Assembly: GCA_031275175.1 (NCBI GenBank)
Contig: JAISPD010000002.1
Location: forward strand, 1-39,325
From: Mycoplasmataceae bacterium
Lineage (GTDB): Bacteria > Bacillota_I > Bacilli_A > Mycoplasmatales > Mycoplasmoidaceae
DNA length: 39,325 nt
Reading direction: 5' to 3'
The notes below the pieces were generated by a model that had not been told where the DNA came from, searched no databases, and worked only from the letters and a program-made list of their open reading frames with translations. Shown here in pieces: positions 2,848-36,536 of the stretch (position 1 is its first letter; each line of letters begins with the position of its first letter). Made by a program: the position numbers and the translations under genes.

Positions 2848-3032
2848 TGTTAAAATATACACTATGCAAACAAATAATAACACCGCAAGAGAGAGAGAGA
2901 GAGAGACGAACGCCTACGGCGTAACTTTATTTTTTTCTTTTAATCTAAAAAACAAGATTACTATTTTAGAAGGCTTGTTTTTCTTGTTTTGTTATCTAAA
3001 TGCAACAAGTAACAATAAGGAAGTATGAAAGT
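2848..3032 (+). promoter_or_regulatory. Extended -10 promoter, (GA)n leader and attenuator-like hairpin
   Basis: TGtTAAAAT at 2848-2856 is an extended -10 box. The leader then holds TATGCAAACAA, a (AG)9A dinucleotide run at 2888-2906 and CCTACGG at 2913-2919. A hairpin with arms AAAAACAAG (2948-2956) and CTTGTTTTT (2974-2982) follows, with a T-rich tail. AAGGAAG lies before the ATG at 3033. The same order of elements precedes the minus-strand gene at 35082-35726, so this is probably a conserved regulatory leader. The hairpin could end transcription early. Confidence 0.6.
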
Positions 3033-4175
3033 ATGACAAATAATAAAATTAAATTGCAATCAAAGAAAAATATTAAAGGAATTTTGGTGAGTATGGCTTG
3101 TGCAATAATTGGTATAGGTGTAGGTATTAGTGTTGGTTTTGCAATTTGAAACAATGAGAATAAAACCTCTAATAATTCAGATTTGAGCAAATGAATAACT
3201 TTTACTGATTTCATGAAACTTAAATTAGACTTAGTAGATTTACCAAAAGATGAACGAGATTACAGTGAAAAACTGGGAAACGATTCAGAAGTTACTAAAG
3301 AGGTTATGACACTTTTTAATGATACATCTCTTTACAATGCCTTGTTAGATCAAGGACGTAAATACATGTTAGTGGAAATAGGAAATATAGCATATGAAAA
3401 TTCAAATTTAAAAATTGATTGGATGTTTGATCATTCGTACTTTAAATTGGACGATTTTTCTTTCGAAGAAGCTCATACCAAAATCCAAAGTCAATATGAA
3501 TTTAAAATGGATTATGATTTTGTGTGACAACATCAAAATTATTTCCACCCAATTATTACTCGCTCCACGAGAGACATAAATGGAAAATACGCACCAGTTG
3601 AATTAGAAAGTATTTATAACAGATACAATGATGGCGAAATTACGGAAGTTGAGATGTTGACTGGTCATAATTCAATATGAACGTCAATTCAGAATAATGG
3701 GCAACCACTTCAAGAAATTAGTAAAGATGATGATTTTTTTGTAGAGAATGCATTTCTGCTATTGCCAAATGTAAAATTTCCAAATTACTATTTGTGCAAT
3801 AATACTATAGCCTATCAATCACCATCTATTAATGATCCTGACTACACGGTATTGCACAGCACAATCAAAGTAAATTCTAGTATGATAATGCCTGAAGGTG
3901 ATCCATTGAGTTATTGGCATAATAACCAAGATGATTGAGAAATCACTAATATTCTCTATTGTTCTCCATTTGATGATAGCGTTCTTCCGATATATTATGA
4001 TCTCGATGAATATACTGCTACTTTTTCATTTCATGAGCCTGACTTAAATATTCCTTCCGATCTTGCATACATGGATGTTACAATTACGGCTAAATTAGGA
4101 ATAACTTTTGTAAACGGCTATAGTTATTGATTAACATTTAGTAACGGTGAACAAATTTTCAATGTTGGTTATTAA
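3033..4175 (+). CDS. Membrane-anchored extracellular protein, (GA)n-leader family
   Basis: A 380-residue protein with no recognised domain. A Lys-rich N-terminus is followed by one hydrophobic segment of about 20 residues (MACAIIGIGVGISVGFAIW), which should act as an uncleaved signal anchor. The rest is a polar, Asp- and Tyr-rich domain outside the cell. Several TGA codons are read as Trp (3147, 3525, 3678), so the frame is intact. The ATG at 3033 was chosen because it keeps the Lys-rich signal and follows AAGGAAG. It is distantly similar to the protein at 35082-35726 in the anchor (GxxxGxxIW) and just after it, and both genes share the same leader. Surface exposure is inferred; function is unknown. 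Confidence 0.75.
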
Positions 4176-20997: not shown

Positions 20998-23505
20998 ATG
21001 GCACACTTACATCAAAGATTAAATAAAGACTTAAATTTGTGATTAAACATTGATCAAAATTTTGTTGAGTATGAAAACAAATGTATTACGGCTTTTTATA
21101 TTATTAAACCGCACGAATTGGCTAGTGATGCACCATTAATTCAAATTGCACGTTTGAATGGGTTTGCAAAGCTTGCGCAGAAATTTGACGATGAACATTC
21201 GGTAACGTTTTATGTATTAAGTGAAAATTTTGATTTGAATTATCAAATTAATAAAGTGCAAGAAGCAACCAAGAATTTTGATTTAAATACCTACTGGCAC
21301 AAACTAAGTAGTCTTTATGCTGGTAAATTTGAGTATTTGTCATCATATAAATCTGAAATTCGTAATAAAAAGTACATTATGTGTGTTCACGGCCATGCAA
21401 AGCCACGAATCAATTCTTTCGTATCAAAAATCGTTCGTGAGCTTAGTCAGGCTGGTTTTGAATTTTTGAAAGCAGATAAAAATGATATTTTTCAACTATT
21501 TAATACTTTCTTTCAATTGCCAGAAACAAACCGCAAATTTACACTTGATAATTCTGAAGTCGGTTTTAAGATCAATACTTTTCAAATTAATCACTTTAAT
21601 GCAACCAATAAAATGTTGTATAAAAAATATTGTCGAATTGTATCGCTGTTGCAAATGCCAAAAGGACCAATTTATGATTTATGATTGGCTCAATTATTTG
21701 ATGTTAATGATGTGATTGTTAGCTACAACATGGAATCGTTAGATGAACGTAAACGCAATCTTTTTATTGAACGGTTACAAGCTGATTTTAAATATGCACG
21801 CAAAACTCGCAGCGAAATCAAAACATTAGAAAATGAAAATAATCGTGCTGCAGTTAATGCAATCATTAATGATTTATCACGTAATATACAAGATGTTAAA
21901 TTTGTGAAATTAATGGTCATGATTTACGCTGATAACAAAAAAGAATTAGGAATTAAATATGAAGAAGTACGAAAAGCATTCAATTCCTTTGGTGCGTATA
22001 GCTACGATGTTAATTTTAGACAGAAAGAAGCTTTTTTGGCGATGCAGCCATTCCGATGAGGCGGTTACAACCAAAATAGTGATAGTTTCAATAAAGAAGT
22101 CGAAGTAGTATTGCCAACAGATGCGATTGGTTTTTCTTATCCAATGACCCAAACTAGCTTTATTGATCAAAATGGTGTTTATTTAGGTTTAAATACAAAT
22201 AGCACGCCAATGTTTTTAGATGTTTGTGATCGAAATAAACGTGCTAGTGGTAATATGTGCATTTTGGGAACAACTGGTTCGCGTAAATCGACATTAATTA
22301 AAATCATGATTTTACAATGACTGCTGCAACCTAAAGTTGAAAGAATTATGTTGATTGATTGAGAAGGTGAGTATGGACAGCTGACAAAAAATTTTAACCA
22401 ATGCGAGTTAGTCTTTGATGGCTCAAATGATGAAAACTCACCAGCAATTAATATGTTTGTGATTCCACAATCATCAAGTGTTGAAGGAGAAGAAAGTTAT
22501 TCATCAAAAAAGCGTTACCAAAAGCACGTGCAACTTTTAAAAAAGATAATTAGCACAATCATCTTGGAACAAGATGATCGATTGACGAGTGATGAAGCAA
22601 ACATTCTAATGCAACTAATAAATTTAACCTATGCGGCTTGTAAAATATTTCCTGAATCAAATTACGATAATTTAAAAATTAAATCGTGGCCAACATTGGA
22701 CACATTGTTAGAAGTTACTGAAAAAGAAATTAAAAAAATGAATAAATCACAACAACTGAATACAGGGATTTTACCGATTTATCAAAAATTGTATCGATTG
22801 GTGTTGATATATACAACTGGTGGAACATTAGATGGACTATTTAATAAACACACCAATATTGTGATTGATGATTCATTCAAATTAATTAGTTTTAATCTGT
22901 ATGGTTTGCTTGACAGTACTAGCGAAAATATACAACAAGCGATGATGTTAATTGTGACAAATTTTTTTACACGCGAAATGATCAATCATCGTCGTAAATT
23001 TCCACGTGAGAATGATCCAAACGCCACTTTTATTAATTTTGTAGTCGACGAATTTCACAAAGTTGTTGACGATCATAATACATTTATGCTTGAAGATATT
23101 GCGCACAAATATCAACAAGTCCGAAAGTATTATTGTAATTACATCATTGCCACACCATCAATCGTAACTTTTACTAAAAGTAATAATCCAACAGTTTTGA
23201 AAAATATGCAAACAATTTTAGATAACAGCATGTTTAAATTTATTCTAAGTATGACTGTTGACGCACTAGAAAAAGAAGTGAATGCAAAATTATTTGGTGA
23301 GAACACTAAACTAACGGCCAATGAAATTCAATATTTGGCTGATTCCAATGAAAACGATGCGGGTAAGTTTATCTTTATTAGTAATGCTCAAGATCGAATT
23401 ATGGGACACATTGATTCGGGCAATAAAATACCTAGAGATAAATTTAACACATCGTTAGCTAATATTAGTGAAATTGCACAGTTATGAGGTAAAGGAAATG
23501 AGTAA
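20998..23505 (+). CDS. virB4: VirB4/TraE-family conjugation ATPase
   Basis: An 835-residue cytoplasmic ATPase that should power the type IV secretion channel. The N-terminal half is the VirB4-type assembly domain. The C-terminal half is an AAA/RecA-like ATPase with Walker A-like ILGTTGSRKSTL at about residues 422-433 and Walker B FVVDEFHK, followed by motifs around RKYYCNYIIATPSIV. The glycine that normally precedes the P-loop Lys (GxxxxGK[ST]) is Arg429 here; Lys430 and Ser431 are kept. The frame is intact with many TGA-Trp codons. Its position after VirB6- and VirB3-like genes fits. It overlaps the next gene by eight bases. Confidence 0.88.
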
Positions 23506-26142: not shown

Positions 26143-28569
26143 ATGTACCGATTAAAGTGATGACAAAAATTATTAATAATGACGTTAATTTGCGTTTTGC
26201 TAGGTATTTCAGCGTGATTAATGTTGGTTGGGGTGTATTGTGGATTTGCTGCGTTAGGCGGTCAAAAAATAGGATTTGGGACAACATTAATTAGCTCCTA
26301 TGGTTTATTGGTCTTGAGTTTAGCAATCATCGGGTTCAGTATTGCTGGAACCATATTTTTTAATAAGGGTAGGAAAGAATATAAAAATAGTGTGGTTAAG
26401 AATGCACCACAGTTTTTAAAACAACAAGATTTTAGAAAAAAGGTATTGTTAAGTTTTAACAAGTTATCAATCCCAATCCCTAGTTTTACATTTGGGTTCG
26501 AAAGCGAACCAATTGGGTTGTTCAAGGGCACACGTGAAACTTATACGCATATTTTGGCGATTAATAAAAAATTAGTTAATTCAACCATGTCAACAGAAAT
26601 TGTTGAAAAAGATAATAACACTTTTGTTGGCACTAAACCATTAGATGCGTTGACTGGTGGATCAGTTGTGGTCATTGGTTCTCCGGGGTCAGGTAAATCA
26701 ATCAATATCATGCTGCCGTCCATTTTGGGATTTTTGCAAAATCCGGCGAAACCGTCTTTGGTTATTACTGATCCAAAGAACGAACTTTACAGTTCGTCGG
26801 CCGCAGTGGCGGTTAAAAATGGGTACAAGGTGGTAAAGTTCGATTTAGGCAAGCCCGAGTCGTCAGGTCACTGAAATTTCTTAAGTGAAATTTACAACCT
26901 TTACCACCAAGAGTATTTGGCGGGGTGGTACCAGTTATACCGAATGGAAAAAATAACTGGCAGCAAGGCAGCAAATGCTGAATATCGCGATATTCTTGCT
27001 GCCACCCAGACTAAAATAGCTAAAGCTAAAGCTAAAATTGAACATTTGATTGAAAGATATAGCGCTTTCACTTCAACCGTCACGGGTGGACATAACATCG
27101 AATTTCAAAAGAAGGGTCGCAGCTTAGCGGGGATGTTTATGTTATTACCATTGGATTTAGGGATTAGTAAGAAAGACTATACGCCATACACCTGCGCTTT
27201 TAATGCTGACATTCTAAATTTTGAATTACCTTTGATTATCGAGCAATTACCACCTTGGGCACTATGTAAAACTAAGATGGGGGATTTAAAACCTGTATCA
27301 ATTGCTACAACTGCGTCGCAGAATTTTCTACAAACTGCAAGAGGAAATTTATCAGTATTTTTAGATCAAGATATACGTGATTTAACGCAGGATTCGACAT
27401 TTGGATTGGATGATGTTGTTAAACAACCAACTGTAATTTACATAGCTTTACCAGCTGAAGAAATTAATACTGAAAGTGAAACAAAAGAATCTGCATCTAA
27501 AATCGCACGATTAGGTTCATTACTTTGTTCATCGCTTTATAGTGCTGTGAACAATTTTCTTGCTGCCTCAGCAAAAGAATATTTGGAACGGCCATTAATC
27601 TTTATGTTAGATGAGTTACCAGCACTCGGTCGATTGGACTTTTTAGAACAATTATTTTCGCTTGGTAGAGGTAAAAATATCTTTGCCGCACCTGCAATTC
27701 AATCAATTAATCAAATCAATCGGATTTATGGCGAATCCCTACGTAAATCAATATTTGCATCAGCAGCTGCGTTGATTGTCACACAAATTGGTAATGATGT
27801 CGATACGGCTCGTTATTTATCAGAATTGTCAGGGTTTGTAAGTATTACTAAAAAAAATTATTCATATGGCGAAGCTGGGGATATTAAAGGTCATTCTACC
27901 CATGAACAGAAAGAGAAGGCAGTGGAAGCAGCAGAATTTACTAGTAATCAAAAATTTGGTGATTTTTTTGTAATTTTACAATCTTTAAAACCGTATAAAA
28001 TGCACACACAAAACTTTATTAAGTCTAATGTATGGAAAAATTTTGAAAAAGAAATTAATGACTTTAAAGAGCCATTTAAAGTTTATCAGGCAGCAATTGA
28101 TTCAGTAAATTTATACACAGACGTGCTTCCAACAATTAGTAAACGTTTATGAATGTATAGAGTTAAAGATCGCTTAGAAGAATCCAAGAATTATCAAATT
28201 CAATTTAACGATTTAATTCAAGCAGGAATAAAACCATTGAATTCAATCGAGCTAAAAATAATTAATGAATTTATTGCTGAGCATGGTTGACTACCGGGAT
28301 TTGGGTTAGAAGAATACATACCATTAAAAATCATGAATGAATTTATTGCTAAATTTGACGCAGTGAAAAACATACCACCAGAACCATTACCTAAGCCTGT
28401 GCCAGTAGTAAAAAAACAACCATTGAAAAAAGTCAAGTCTAAGAAAATTAAAACTGAGGGTAATCATTTTGTTAAGAGCAAAGATCCAGTTAAAGCACAA
28501 CGTCAACTTGCGGCAATTCGACGTAAGCAAGTTGAAAAAAGAAAACAAATTTTAAAGGAGATTATGTAA
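26143..28569 (+). CDS. virD4: VirD4/TraG-type coupling protein
   Basis: An 808-residue type IV coupling protein, which recruits the relaxosome and other substrates to the secretion channel. Two N-terminal membrane spans are visible within the first 75 residues. Walker A is GSPGSGKS at residues 179-186, followed by the family motif ITDPKNELYSSSA. A long internal region leads to Walker B (FMLDELPALGRLD) and the ARNQ-like segment LGRGKNIFAAPAIQSINQI. A Lys/Pro-rich tail ends the protein. Two membrane spans plus the TraG core distinguish it from VirB4. The ATG at 26143 extends the frame upstream into the first membrane span. Confidence 0.93.
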
Positions 28570-29797: not shown

Positions 29798-31522
29798 ATG
29801 AAGAACCAAGCAATAATACCAATTGAACCTAGTAAACATAGTTCTAAACTACCGCTGATCATTCGCATCCACTACTATACTCCTACTTCACCAAAAAGAA
29901 CCACTGCTAACGGTAAAGTAATAGATCCGTATGAATTTTATTCAAACGGCACTGATTGGGAAGAATATGTGACTAACAAGAGCAAACATCCATCTGATTC
30001 CAAAGAATTACAATTCAATTACGAAGATTATCAAAAAGGCGTAACAAAAAATGTTGAATATCAAAAAGATTGTAAGCAATTTAATCAATTTGGAGAGATT
30101 AATAAATTTAATCCAAGCAACACTAAAGCCAAACGTGGAACGATTGTTTGAGATGCACTAATTTCATTAGCACCAGCAACTAGTGCCAAAAATGATTTAT
30201 CAGCATTAGCAGTTGAAGCTGCGACAATAACATATCGTAATTTGCTGATTGCTAACGCGAAACGCGGGTGAACTGATCACAATACTGATTGGGTAGCGTC
30301 AGTCCATAAAGATAAAGCACATCATCATATTCATCTCAAAATTTTTCAACCCGAAAAAATAAATAATGATGAAATAATTTCCAAACCCATGGTAAGTATG
30401 CGTTTTAAAGGACCAGCAATTGTGCAGATTTCAAAAAGTCTATTTGGATTAAAACAAGATGCAACTGCAATTAGTAAAGCAAGAGATATCTTGCGAAAAG
30501 AATTTGAAAATTATATTTTAAGTGTAATGAACGACAACTATGGGGATGAATTGCGTGAAGCCGCTTTAGATGCGACCAGATTAAATGCAATTAGTAAGCA
30601 AATCGAAGAAGTACGCAAAGATTTTAAAAAATTTGGTTTAGCAATTAATTATGGAAATTTAGTTAAACCAGTGGATGAGCGAATTTTTTATTATCAAAAG
30701 CTGAAACCTGAAAATTATGATAATAACTTATCTAATTATTCAAAAGCCAATGTGAAGCTACTAAAACATATGTTGCCTAATGTAACGCACATCAAAACTG
30801 AGTATGAATGATCACTTTTGCATTGTAAACCCGACAAAGACACTAAGCCGTTGATAGTTTATGTCCCAGTTTATGTAGACCAGTCGGGTCTATCACCAAA
30901 ACAAAGAATTGATGCTGAGCAAAAATTTATTAAGTTGCAAGGTATTTATGAATTTGAGCGATTTAAAGAACATCGCAAAGTTGATCACTATGAAAGAACT
31001 AAAGTTTATGATGTAACACAAGTAGTTAAATTAAGTTCTAAATCTAAGGAGAATCCAACCGTGTTGAAGAGTCAATTCGAATTAAAATGTTTAGTTGATG
31101 ATTTTATTGAAAACACGATTAAAAATAATCCGAAATTAAACAAATTTAATCAAACATTTTTCAATGAAGTTGAAAAACACTTTAAGCAAATTCAAGGCGC
31201 ACTTGATCCAGATGTTAAAACTAAATATATTCCCGAAACAATTAATAAGCAAAAAGAATTTCGTTTAAACGAAATGCATACAGCATTGGCCAATAAAGTA
31301 TTAAAGCTTGCTGATGCAACGAACAAAATTAAAAAAACTTATGGTAATAGTCATTCAATTGGTCAAGCATGTAAAAATTTAACTGCAGAGCTGAAAACTT
31401 TCATGTCCAAAACATTTAAAAATCATTTTGAAAATGAATTCCATTACGTCTATGCTGCGCTTGACAATGATGTAAAAGCAGCGTTGAAAAATGATCAACA
31501 ACATGATCTGGGGTGAGAATAA
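29798..31522 (+). CDS. MobP-like conjugative relaxase
   Basis: A 574-residue protein expected to nick oriT and pilot the transferred strand. The N-terminal part contains IRIHYYTPTSPKR with candidate catalytic Tyr residues and, at residues 174-179, AHHHIH within HKDKAHHHIHLKIF. This is the three-His metal-binding motif of HUH relaxases, preceded by ASVH as in Firmicute MobP families. The C-terminal 350 residues are helical and Lys-rich without known motifs. The frame needs TGA-Trp at several sites. The ribbon-helix-helix gene directly before it supports the assignment. Confidence 0.8.
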
Positions 31523-32962: not shown

Positions 32963-33907
32963 ATGAATTTAATTAAACCATTAATAAATATAGATGAATT
33001 AATTTTAATTGCTAAACAACATCACAATAAAACTCGTTACTATAATATTAAACATTATAGACATTGTTTTACTGGAAACTATGAAAACGATATTAAAAAT
33101 GCCAATGAAGTCATTGATAAAACTTTAAACCATAACACCGCAAATAATAGAGAGCACTCATTTAAGTGGGGATTTGATCAGTTGTATGAAAATGAATTTA
33201 ATCATAAACATATTCATCATCGGCCAAACTTCCCCAGTCATTTCACAACGAGATTAGATAAAAATGAAATTAATTTTATTAAAGCTAAATTTGAAGAATA
33301 CATAAAATATGATCACCTTAGTGTTTTAGTAAATAAGTGGAACGCTTTAAAATATTCCCATTTAAGAATTTATCATTGTTTTCTGACACTTATTCAGAGC
33401 GGAATGCGGGTTGGTGAATTAGTTAGTATTGATTTTAGAGCTGATCCAGGACGCCGTCAAATGCACTCTATCTTACATAAAGACACAATGGTAGAAATTG
33501 TTATCAATACACTAAAAACTAAAAAGAAACGTGAGATTTATGTACCATTAGCTTCATATAATTTTTTTAAAAATGACAAACGAAAGTTAAGTAGAGATTT
33601 AGTTATTGATGGGTTCACTACCTTTGCACGATGAGCGAAGTTACCCATGCGGTTAACAGCTCATGTTTGTCGTAGAACACTGGCATCATTAATGCATGAG
33701 GCAGGTGTTGATGTTTATACGATTGCCATGACTTTAGGAAATACACCAGGCGTAGTGATGAACCATTACATTTTATCTAGTGGTAGAAATTTTGATGCTG
33801 TGGAAATAGCAATAGCAAGAATGAATGGAAGTTTAGTCAAAAAGAACAATATGTATGTCAATAGTGAATGGATGGACATCAAAGCTAGTGATAAACATAC
33901 AAGTTAA
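32963..33907 (+). CDS. Tyrosine recombinase/integrase
   Basis: A 314-residue site-specific recombinase. Catalytic positions are Arg149 in SGMRVGEL, a Lys in LKTKKKR, His234 and Arg237 in HVCRR, and the nucleophile Tyr269 in NHY. The usual second His (LGH) is Asn in LGNTP, a known variation in phage-type integrases. The N-terminal 110 residues would be the arm- and core-binding region. The frame needs TGA-Trp at 33632. It probably integrates and excises this element; no att site could be identified. Confidence 0.92.
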
Positions 33908-35726: not shown

Positions 35727-35890
35727 GTTTGTTATTCCTTAATTTGTGAAATTTGTTGGCAACAAAATAAAAAAGACCCATAGGAATATCCTTTGAGTCT
35801 TTTAGTGAACGAAAAAGTGACTATAACCCGTAGGTGTTACTCTCTCTCAATGAGCTAGTTGTTGCATAAAATGATTGTATCATAATTTCA
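35727..35890 (-). promoter_or_regulatory. Second (GA)n leader with attenuator-like hairpin
   Basis: Reading the minus strand: an extended -10 TGaTACAAT ends at 35874, then TATGCAACAA, GAGAGAGA (35848-35841), CCTACGG (35834-35828), and a hairpin between AAAAGACTC and GGGTCTTTT (35803-35771) followed by T-rich sequence. The order and spacing match the leader at 2848-3032. Confidence 0.6.
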
Positions 35891-36377: not shown

Positions 36378-36536
36378 TTGTACACATCGCCCGTCAAACT
36401 ATGAGAGCCGCTAATACCTAAAACCATTTTTCTAACTCGCAAGAGAAGTAAATGTCTAGGGTAGGAGTGGTGATTGGAGTTAAGTCGTAACAAGGTACCC
36501 CCCTACGAGAACGTGGGGGTGGATAACCTCCTTTCT
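36378..36536 (+). rRNA. 3'-terminal fragment of 16S rRNA (pseudogene)
   Basis: About 160 bases match the end of bacterial 16S rRNA: TTGTACACATCGCCCGTC, later GTAACAAGGTA, an intact helix 45 region and the anti-Shine-Dalgarno CCTCC at 36527-36531 in GGATAACCTCCTTTCT. Everything upstream of the decoding region is missing. Two near-universal positions differ (ACACAT for ACACAC, GGATAA for GGATCA), which points to a decayed copy. It cannot form a functional small subunit RNA. Confidence 0.85.

Follow-up and report, generated by a model that had tools for sequence, protein, structure and literature searches.

Leaders with a frame-setting GA or poly-G tract before surface-protein genes in mycoplasma relatives: probable phase-variable attenuators under ribosome control

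Two repeat-bearing leaders and their genes

The stretch of DNA analysed here (the window, 39,325 nucleotides) is contig C30 of an 833 kb assembly in 33 contigs, 86% complete, from a Mycoplasmataceae bacterium in which TGA is read as Trp. The genus of this organism was represented by 36 genomes in the comparison set, its own genome being labelled G000. Two genes for surface-anchored proteins, one on each strand, lie behind leaders of the same build. Their elements are listed below as read from the sequence, unless they come from folding or translation.

Leader 1
2848-2856 (+), extended -10 TGTTAAAAT; its TAAAAT lies 7 nt before the ATG of the leader ORF (uORF)
2863 (+), TATGCAAACAA motif
2864-3043 (+), leader uORF MQTNNNTARERERETNAYGV...KEVWKYDK* in the assembled frame; it passes the terminator and stops 11 nt inside the surface gene
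2888-2906 (+), alternating GA tract, 19 nt or 9.5 units long, reading as (Arg-Glu)n whatever the frame
2910-2922 (+), hairpin 1 (HP1), ACGCCTACGGCGT, ACGCC-UAC-GGCGU, pause-like; its pairing is kept through compensatory changes in the genus
2923-2947 (+), pyrimidine-rich spacer from HP1 to the terminator
2948-2982 (+), premature intrinsic-terminator-like hairpin with U-tract, predicted at -7.1 kcal/mol
3017-3023 (+), Shine-Dalgarno-like AAGGAAG of the surface gene
3033-4175 (+), gene for a surface-anchored protein with an N-terminal membrane anchor and no Pfam family

Leader 2
35882-35874 (-), extended -10 TGATACAAT, with the TACAAT -10 at 35879-35874
35867-35802 (-), leader uORF MQQLAHWERVTPTGYSHFFVH*, beginning with ATGCAACAA at 35867 and stopping at the terminator foot
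35848-35840 (-), GA tract of 9 nt (4.5 units)
35840-35823 (-), HP1 of this leader, GUAACACC-UAC-GGGUUAU, bulged (folding)
35803-35771 (-), terminator-like hairpin, predicted at -15.1 kcal/mol
35726-35082 (-), second gene for a surface-anchored protein, its N-terminal anchor similar to that of the gene behind leader 1 (translation)

The original prediction, which rested on these two leaders, had described a shared order of extended -10, TATGCAA[A]CAA, (GA)n, CCTACGG, terminator-like hairpin and ATG, and both leaders show it. Its count of about 9.5 units for leader 1 was right, and the 4 units that it gave for leader 2 become 4.5 on inspection. The CCTACGG motif is part of the separate small hairpin HP1, not of the terminator. 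The working part of the leader, an ORF whose frame is set by the repeat, had been missed: the block described as -10, TATGCAA[A]CAA and (GA)n is in both leaders a promoter followed 6-7 nt on by an ATG (7 nt in leader 1, 6 nt 3' of the extended -10 in leader 2). Since GA has a period of two, the tract reads as (Arg-Glu)n in all frames and never yields a stop.

At its assembled length of 19 nt, the tract of leader 1 puts the uORF in a read-through frame that overlaps the surface-gene start at 3033. One unit more or less moves the stop to the 3' arm of HP1 or to a position a few nt 5' of the terminator. No terminator in the genome's set is weaker than this one (-7.1 kcal/mol, compared with about -15 to -17), and the surface gene has an alternative in-frame ATG at 3000. 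The uORF of leader 2 ends on the first base of its terminator, a stop position that matches the high-expression position in pil1 of S. gallolyticus (PMC3894217). Because it has only 4.5 units, the tract of leader 2 is probably locked, being too short for frequent slippage.

Elsewhere in the window, from about 14.9 to 34 kb, a block resembling a conjugative element was recognised from translations only. Besides large secreted and membrane proteins, it holds a VirB4-like ATPase (20998-23505), a TraG/VirD4-like coupling protein (26143-28569), a relaxase-like protein (29798-31522) and a tyrosine recombinase-like protein (32963-33907). The genome has a single full 16S rRNA gene, on contig C28. Isolated 16S fragments, mostly of the 3' end, lie in the window at 36385-36521 (+) and at G000:C29:6621-6911 and C7:6723-7086, and represent degenerate copies.

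A family of leaders in the genome and genus

The shared build of the two window leaders goes beyond chance: all loci with at least seven full GA units in the 833-kb genome, found on contigs C2, C6, C14, C28 and C30, are leaders of this kind. A DNA search with the window leader retrieved those on C6 (E 8.5e-24), C2 (8.9e-14) and C28 (6.4e-6), and the genome has seven GA leaders altogether (two on C30, two on C2 and one each on C6, C28 and C14). The further copies that the original prediction had proposed to look for are numerous: by pattern searches and reading of loci, 12 genomes of the genus were seen to contain 59 terminator-bearing GA leaders between them (G000 7, G001 1, G018 5, G020 14, G023 5, G024 14, G025 1, G026 1, G027 2, G032 1, G033 4 and G035 4). 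In addition, 44 distinct leaders were read in which a poly-G tract takes the place of GA within the same order of elements; by pattern search these are numerous in G024, G027 and G023. In one locus of G027 (L383, C16:14400-14450), a long poly-C-rich stretch lies directly 5' of the -10 of a poly-G leader and is possibly a second variable promoter element.

Covariance model R1, based on 17 GA leaders, was searched against 248 genomes of the order; poly-G leaders gave a second model, R2. Members of R1 occur in at least six genomes of the genus, counts from both models being lower bounds because 16-18 candidates per genome were scored. Since R1 also retrieves poly-G leaders and R2 recognises the GA leaders of G000, G020 and G033, the two classes are, by these model matches, homologous and their tracts interchangeable. 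Outside the genus, the candidates scored by R1 in the 248 genomes included just one weak match (G074, E 0.004), rejected as a leader since it has neither tract nor terminator.

Most genes that follow the leaders code for lipoproteins or for proteins whose N-terminus carries a membrane anchor. A few are R-M genes (DNA methylase PF01555, E 1.7e-12), and one codes for an alcohol dehydrogenase-like protein (PF08240). Both surface proteins and R-M systems are typical phase-variable classes. Variation of tract length, also predicted originally, is seen in near-identical leader copies that differ in unit number: leaders of G020 that are 93-99% identical over the first 75 nt past the tract carry anything from 8 to 18 units, the maximum in that genome being 21. 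These are differences between paralogous copies within assemblies, which are fragmented and in some cases named as MAGs, and assembled tract lengths may be wrong.

Some matches of the searches were set apart from this family. In G007, (TC)n tracts lie within the signal-peptide coding region of lipoprotein genes (C11:50128 and C39:18377; L042 and L044), a different case rejected as leaders; many further GA/TC tracts are present in that genome. A wide scan of the genome collection for (GA)nTAA gave, among the matches listed, mostly unrelated tracts, some apparently of the coding type in Patescibacteria. One locus of a Bacteroidetes MAG (L250, CAIQBY010000325.1) has (GA)20-TAA, next a strong terminator hairpin and then an ATG, a possible analogue outside mycoplasmas.

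The leader ORF and its reading frames

An ATG that is open to the tract was found in 26 of the 27 GA leaders with a clear -10, the remaining one having GTG, compared with 7.9 +/- 2.3 (maximum 16) in shuffles. The start codon follows the -10 by 6-24 nt in GA leaders. Among poly-G leaders, for which the search pattern included the ATG and left its distance free between 3 and 30 nt, the gap is 5-9 nt in 43 of 44. With this spacing the leader ORF appears mostly leaderless or nearly so, with little or no 5' UTR.

The position of the stops depends on the frame. In 23 of 24 GA clusters the frames are split: one reaches its stop 15 nt or more 5' of the terminator, and another goes 9 nt or more into the terminator or passes it. 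The clusters are less than 80% identical and may still share ancestry, which makes their independence approximate. Dinucleotide shuffles, which disrupt the hairpin, gave 13.6 +/- 2.5 such clusters (0/2000 runs reaching the observed number), and shuffles of the spacer alone, which preserve the hairpin, gave 10.5 +/- 2.3 (0/3000). The poly-G set served as a separate replicate, and the same criterion held in 44/44 leaders (26.2 +/- 3.2 in shuffles) and in 15/15 clusters (8.8 +/- 1.9). In many GA leaders two frames get to the terminator foot, so that OFF would be one frame in three in those leaders. When the assembled frame is used as a predictor, 22 of 54 GA leaders and 12 of 44 poly-G leaders are of the ON type (stop no more than 6 nt from the terminator foot, inside the terminator or beyond) and the remainder of the OFF type.

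The leader ORF ends before the surface gene or out of frame with it. On this ground a fusion between leader frame and surface protein was rejected, and so was phase variation in the coding frame, as the tract is not within the reading frame of the controlled gene.

Terminator, spacer and hairpin 1

Hairpins of the GA-leader terminators are mostly predicted at -13 to -23 kcal/mol. A hairpin with a U-tract is present in all of the 59 GA and 44 poly-G leaders kept, its presence being a selection criterion; its near-constant spacing was a criterion only loosely. In GA leaders the terminator starts 33.6 +/- 3.4 nt past the tract, most often at 34, 31 or 37 nt. Steps of three are expected if frame matters, and paralogy contributes to them.

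The spacer 5' of the terminator is 74-80% pyrimidine. Within the HP1 stem, 143 of 161 pairs are kept in fixed alignment columns, compared with 113.7 +/- 3.5 in shuffles, and the RNAalifold consensus has compensatory changes in four of five pairs; some leaders have no clear HP1. The sequence of HP1 differs between species while its pairing is retained, which led us to reject the CGCC-NNN-GGCG dyad as a DNA operator. A trp-like antiterminator between the 3' arm of HP1 and the 5' arm of the terminator was also set aside, inspection giving only matches of 4-5 bp that are not conserved. In a trp-type attenuator, stalling at regulatory codons decides whether an antiterminator or the terminator forms. 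Here the terminator stem has no apparent partner whose pairing is conserved; an (Arg-Glu)n stretch could make ribosomes stall, but poly-G leaders encode Gly.

Five leaders of R-M genes (G035:C1, C4, C7 and C16 and G026:C5; L214, L215, L217, L218 and L220) have an SD-like GGAGG 5' of the hairpin and an ATG a few nt 3' of it. Owing to this arrangement, the hairpin could act in translation instead. It may bring SD and ATG together, and these leaders may act partly at translation initiation.

A proposed mechanism and its alternatives

The ORF, its frame pattern, the hairpins, the homology with exchange of tracts and the length differences between copies are features of the DNA itself. We consider it very likely that they make up phase-variable leaders in which translation controls antitermination by the ribosome; what we infer is that the tract slips in vivo, that the ORF is translated, that termination and antitermination take place and that a pause is involved. 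Transcription would begin at or just 5' of the ATG of the short leader ORF, which would be read across the (GA)n or poly-G tract, stop-free in every frame. DNA slippage would alter n, and hence the frame 3' of the tract. In OFF frames the ribosome would meet a stop right past the tract or within HP1, usually some 17-33 nt short of the terminator, which would then fold and leave the surface gene untranscribed. In the ON frame the ribosome would reach the terminator foot, enter the terminator or cross it, the hairpin would be blocked from folding and RNA polymerase would enter the gene, which has its own ribosome-binding site. HP1 and the pyrimidine-rich spacer probably pause RNA polymerase, which would let the ribosome keep up.

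The distances involved can be compared with those measured elsewhere. In the pil1 locus of S. gallolyticus, GCAGA repeats in a leader ORF exert control via ribosome-mediated antitermination, as demonstrated by mutation and RT-PCR (Danne et al. 2014, PMC3894217). A leader stop 4 nt before the stem-loop or within it gives the ON state there, and a stop at least 28 nt before it gives mostly low expression (PMC3894217). In E. coli, a stop codon that lies a few nt from terminator tR2 suppresses it, and the terminator works at full activity once the distance exceeds about 27-30 nt (PMC4824070). In the present leaders, stops directly past the GA tract lie about 28-34 nt before the terminator and fit both thresholds; stops within HP1, at about 17-26 nt, may allow partial suppression. 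The leaders are therefore classed as pil1-like, with the steps of translation and termination presumed.

The alternatives have to account for the same features. Coupling at the level of translation, with the frame of the leader ORF setting re-initiation at the gene start and the hairpin being incidental or structuring the initiation region, is unlikely. It would suit the several read-through frames that stop near the gene start (at +11, +20, -6, -12 and -19, for example) and the placement of SD-like site and ATG on the two sides of the hairpin in the G035/G026 leaders. However, most leaders have an SD of their own between terminator and ATG, many ON-type frames stop within the hairpin, far from the gene start, and a hairpin followed by a U-tract is typical of a terminator. 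We regard as quite unlikely the switch envisaged by the original prediction, in which repeat length changes RNA folding and a purine-tract antiterminator competes with the terminator. Pairing between tract and spacer is possible given the pyrimidine content of the spacer, and in the R2 consensus structure the G tract does pair with the spacer around HP1, but such pairing does not involve the terminator stem, and sliding pairing would tolerate a change of one unit. When leaders were folded at six successive values of n, the predicted terminator probability changed by only about 0.02 on average, in GA and poly-G leaders alike; since terminator folding is nearly constant with n, a switch by RNA folding alone is unsupported and was rejected. 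Moreover, no alternative pairing with the terminator stem is evident, poly-G replaces GA in homologous leaders, and the start codons and the frame pattern would be left unexplained. From the idea of a phase-variable RNA attenuator, the transcribed, slippage-prone repeat and the attenuator were thus retained, and the n-dependent refolding was abandoned.

Two further explanations are both very improbable. An action of the tract at the DNA level, by protein binding or promoter spacing as for the (GAA)n of vlhA, would be in keeping with a repeat 5' of variable surface genes in a mycoplasma relative, but the present tract lies 3' of the -10, within the transcript, and GA and G are exchangeable. Neutral microsatellites near ordinary terminators could be invoked because G or GA tracts can arise via slippage and some GA tracts of the genus lie elsewhere; against this stand over 100 leaders that share order and spacing, their concentration before surface and R-M genes, the constrained frames and the covarying hairpin.

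Relation to known systems

The closest counterpart is the pair of pilus loci pil1 and pil3 of S. gallolyticus, where a simple repeat likewise sits within the ORF of a leader peptide, an intrinsic terminator precedes the gene, surface structures are controlled and slippage changes the frame; expression is low when the leader stop lies far upstream and high, by translation-mediated antitermination, when it lies near or inside the stem-loop (PMC3894217). In the present leaders the split of the frames is read from the sequence, and slippage and the effect on expression are predicted. The streptococcal system uses a GCAGA unit at two loci, and its leader ORF has a ribosome-binding site (PMC3894217), a detail on which the mechanism does not depend. 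Unlike it, the leaders described here have a GA or G unit, an ORF at or near the 5' end and a separate covarying hairpin before the terminator, and they number dozens in some genomes, some of them before R-M genes. They also resemble attenuation of the E. coli pyrBI type, in which the leader ribosome enters the terminator during a pause of RNA polymerase. By following the polymerase closely, such a ribosome suppresses the intrinsic terminator (PMC4824070), and for the present leaders, too, we propose a pausing element 5' of the terminator. pyrBI responds to nucleotide supply, whereas the input proposed here is an inherited repeat number.

In M. gallisepticum, the number of (GAA)n repeats is also thought to control members of a surface lipoprotein family, vlhA, in a mycoplasma (PMC6258824). 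That trinucleotide repeat lies about 40 nt 5' of the transcription start, and 12 repeats are believed to be required for activity (PMC6258824). The analogy drawn originally with vlhA fails because of that position: the dinucleotide or poly-G tract described here is 3' of the -10, transcribed and probably translated, and is proposed to act by frame. The (AG)n tract in M.MmyCI of Mycoplasma mycoides (PMC3498834) is of the same repeat type and lies within a reading frame. Unlike that case, the tract-bearing ORF is here separate from the controlled gene, with a terminator between them.

In the same genus, (GA)n tracts also occur directly past the start codon in coding sequences, mostly DNA-methyltransferase-like (G024:C18, G013:C14, G022:C1, G028:C5, G033:C6 and G035:C7; loci L085, L098, L095, L100, L205 and L216, the methyltransferase-like ones including L085, L098, L100 and L205). 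Judging by the placement of their tracts, these are cases of classical coding-frame phase variation. Their presence suggests that the leader cassette and coding-frame phase variation share a logic and possibly an origin.

Implications for surface variation in the genus

The kind of mechanism proposed is already published for pil1 and pil3 (PMC3894217), and the descriptions of attenuation-type phase variation found in the open-access literature concern these two pilus loci of a single streptococcus; searches of that literature for mycoplasma leaders of this sort found none. The novelty lies in the host group and the scale, in the repeat types and the way they replace each other, and in the near-leaderless ORF and the covarying HP1. 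We think it rather probable that the leaders represent a modular "frame-switch attenuator" cassette, composed of a near-leaderless ORF, an interchangeable slippery tract, a pause hairpin and a terminator, which has spread before dozens of surface genes and some R-M genes. It would provide many independent transcriptional switches per genome (about 45 in G024) and a combinatorial surface, with HP1 synchronising ribosome and RNA polymerase.

If this is true, annotation may well miss such switches, because the leader ORFs are short and overlooked, and the ON or OFF state of each gene would be predictable from sequence alone. The leaders would likewise offer dozens of natural replicates on how the distance of a stop codon controls terminator read-through. 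The logic known from pil1 would then appear in mycoplasma relatives as a genome-wide device, with two repeat types exchanged at one position.
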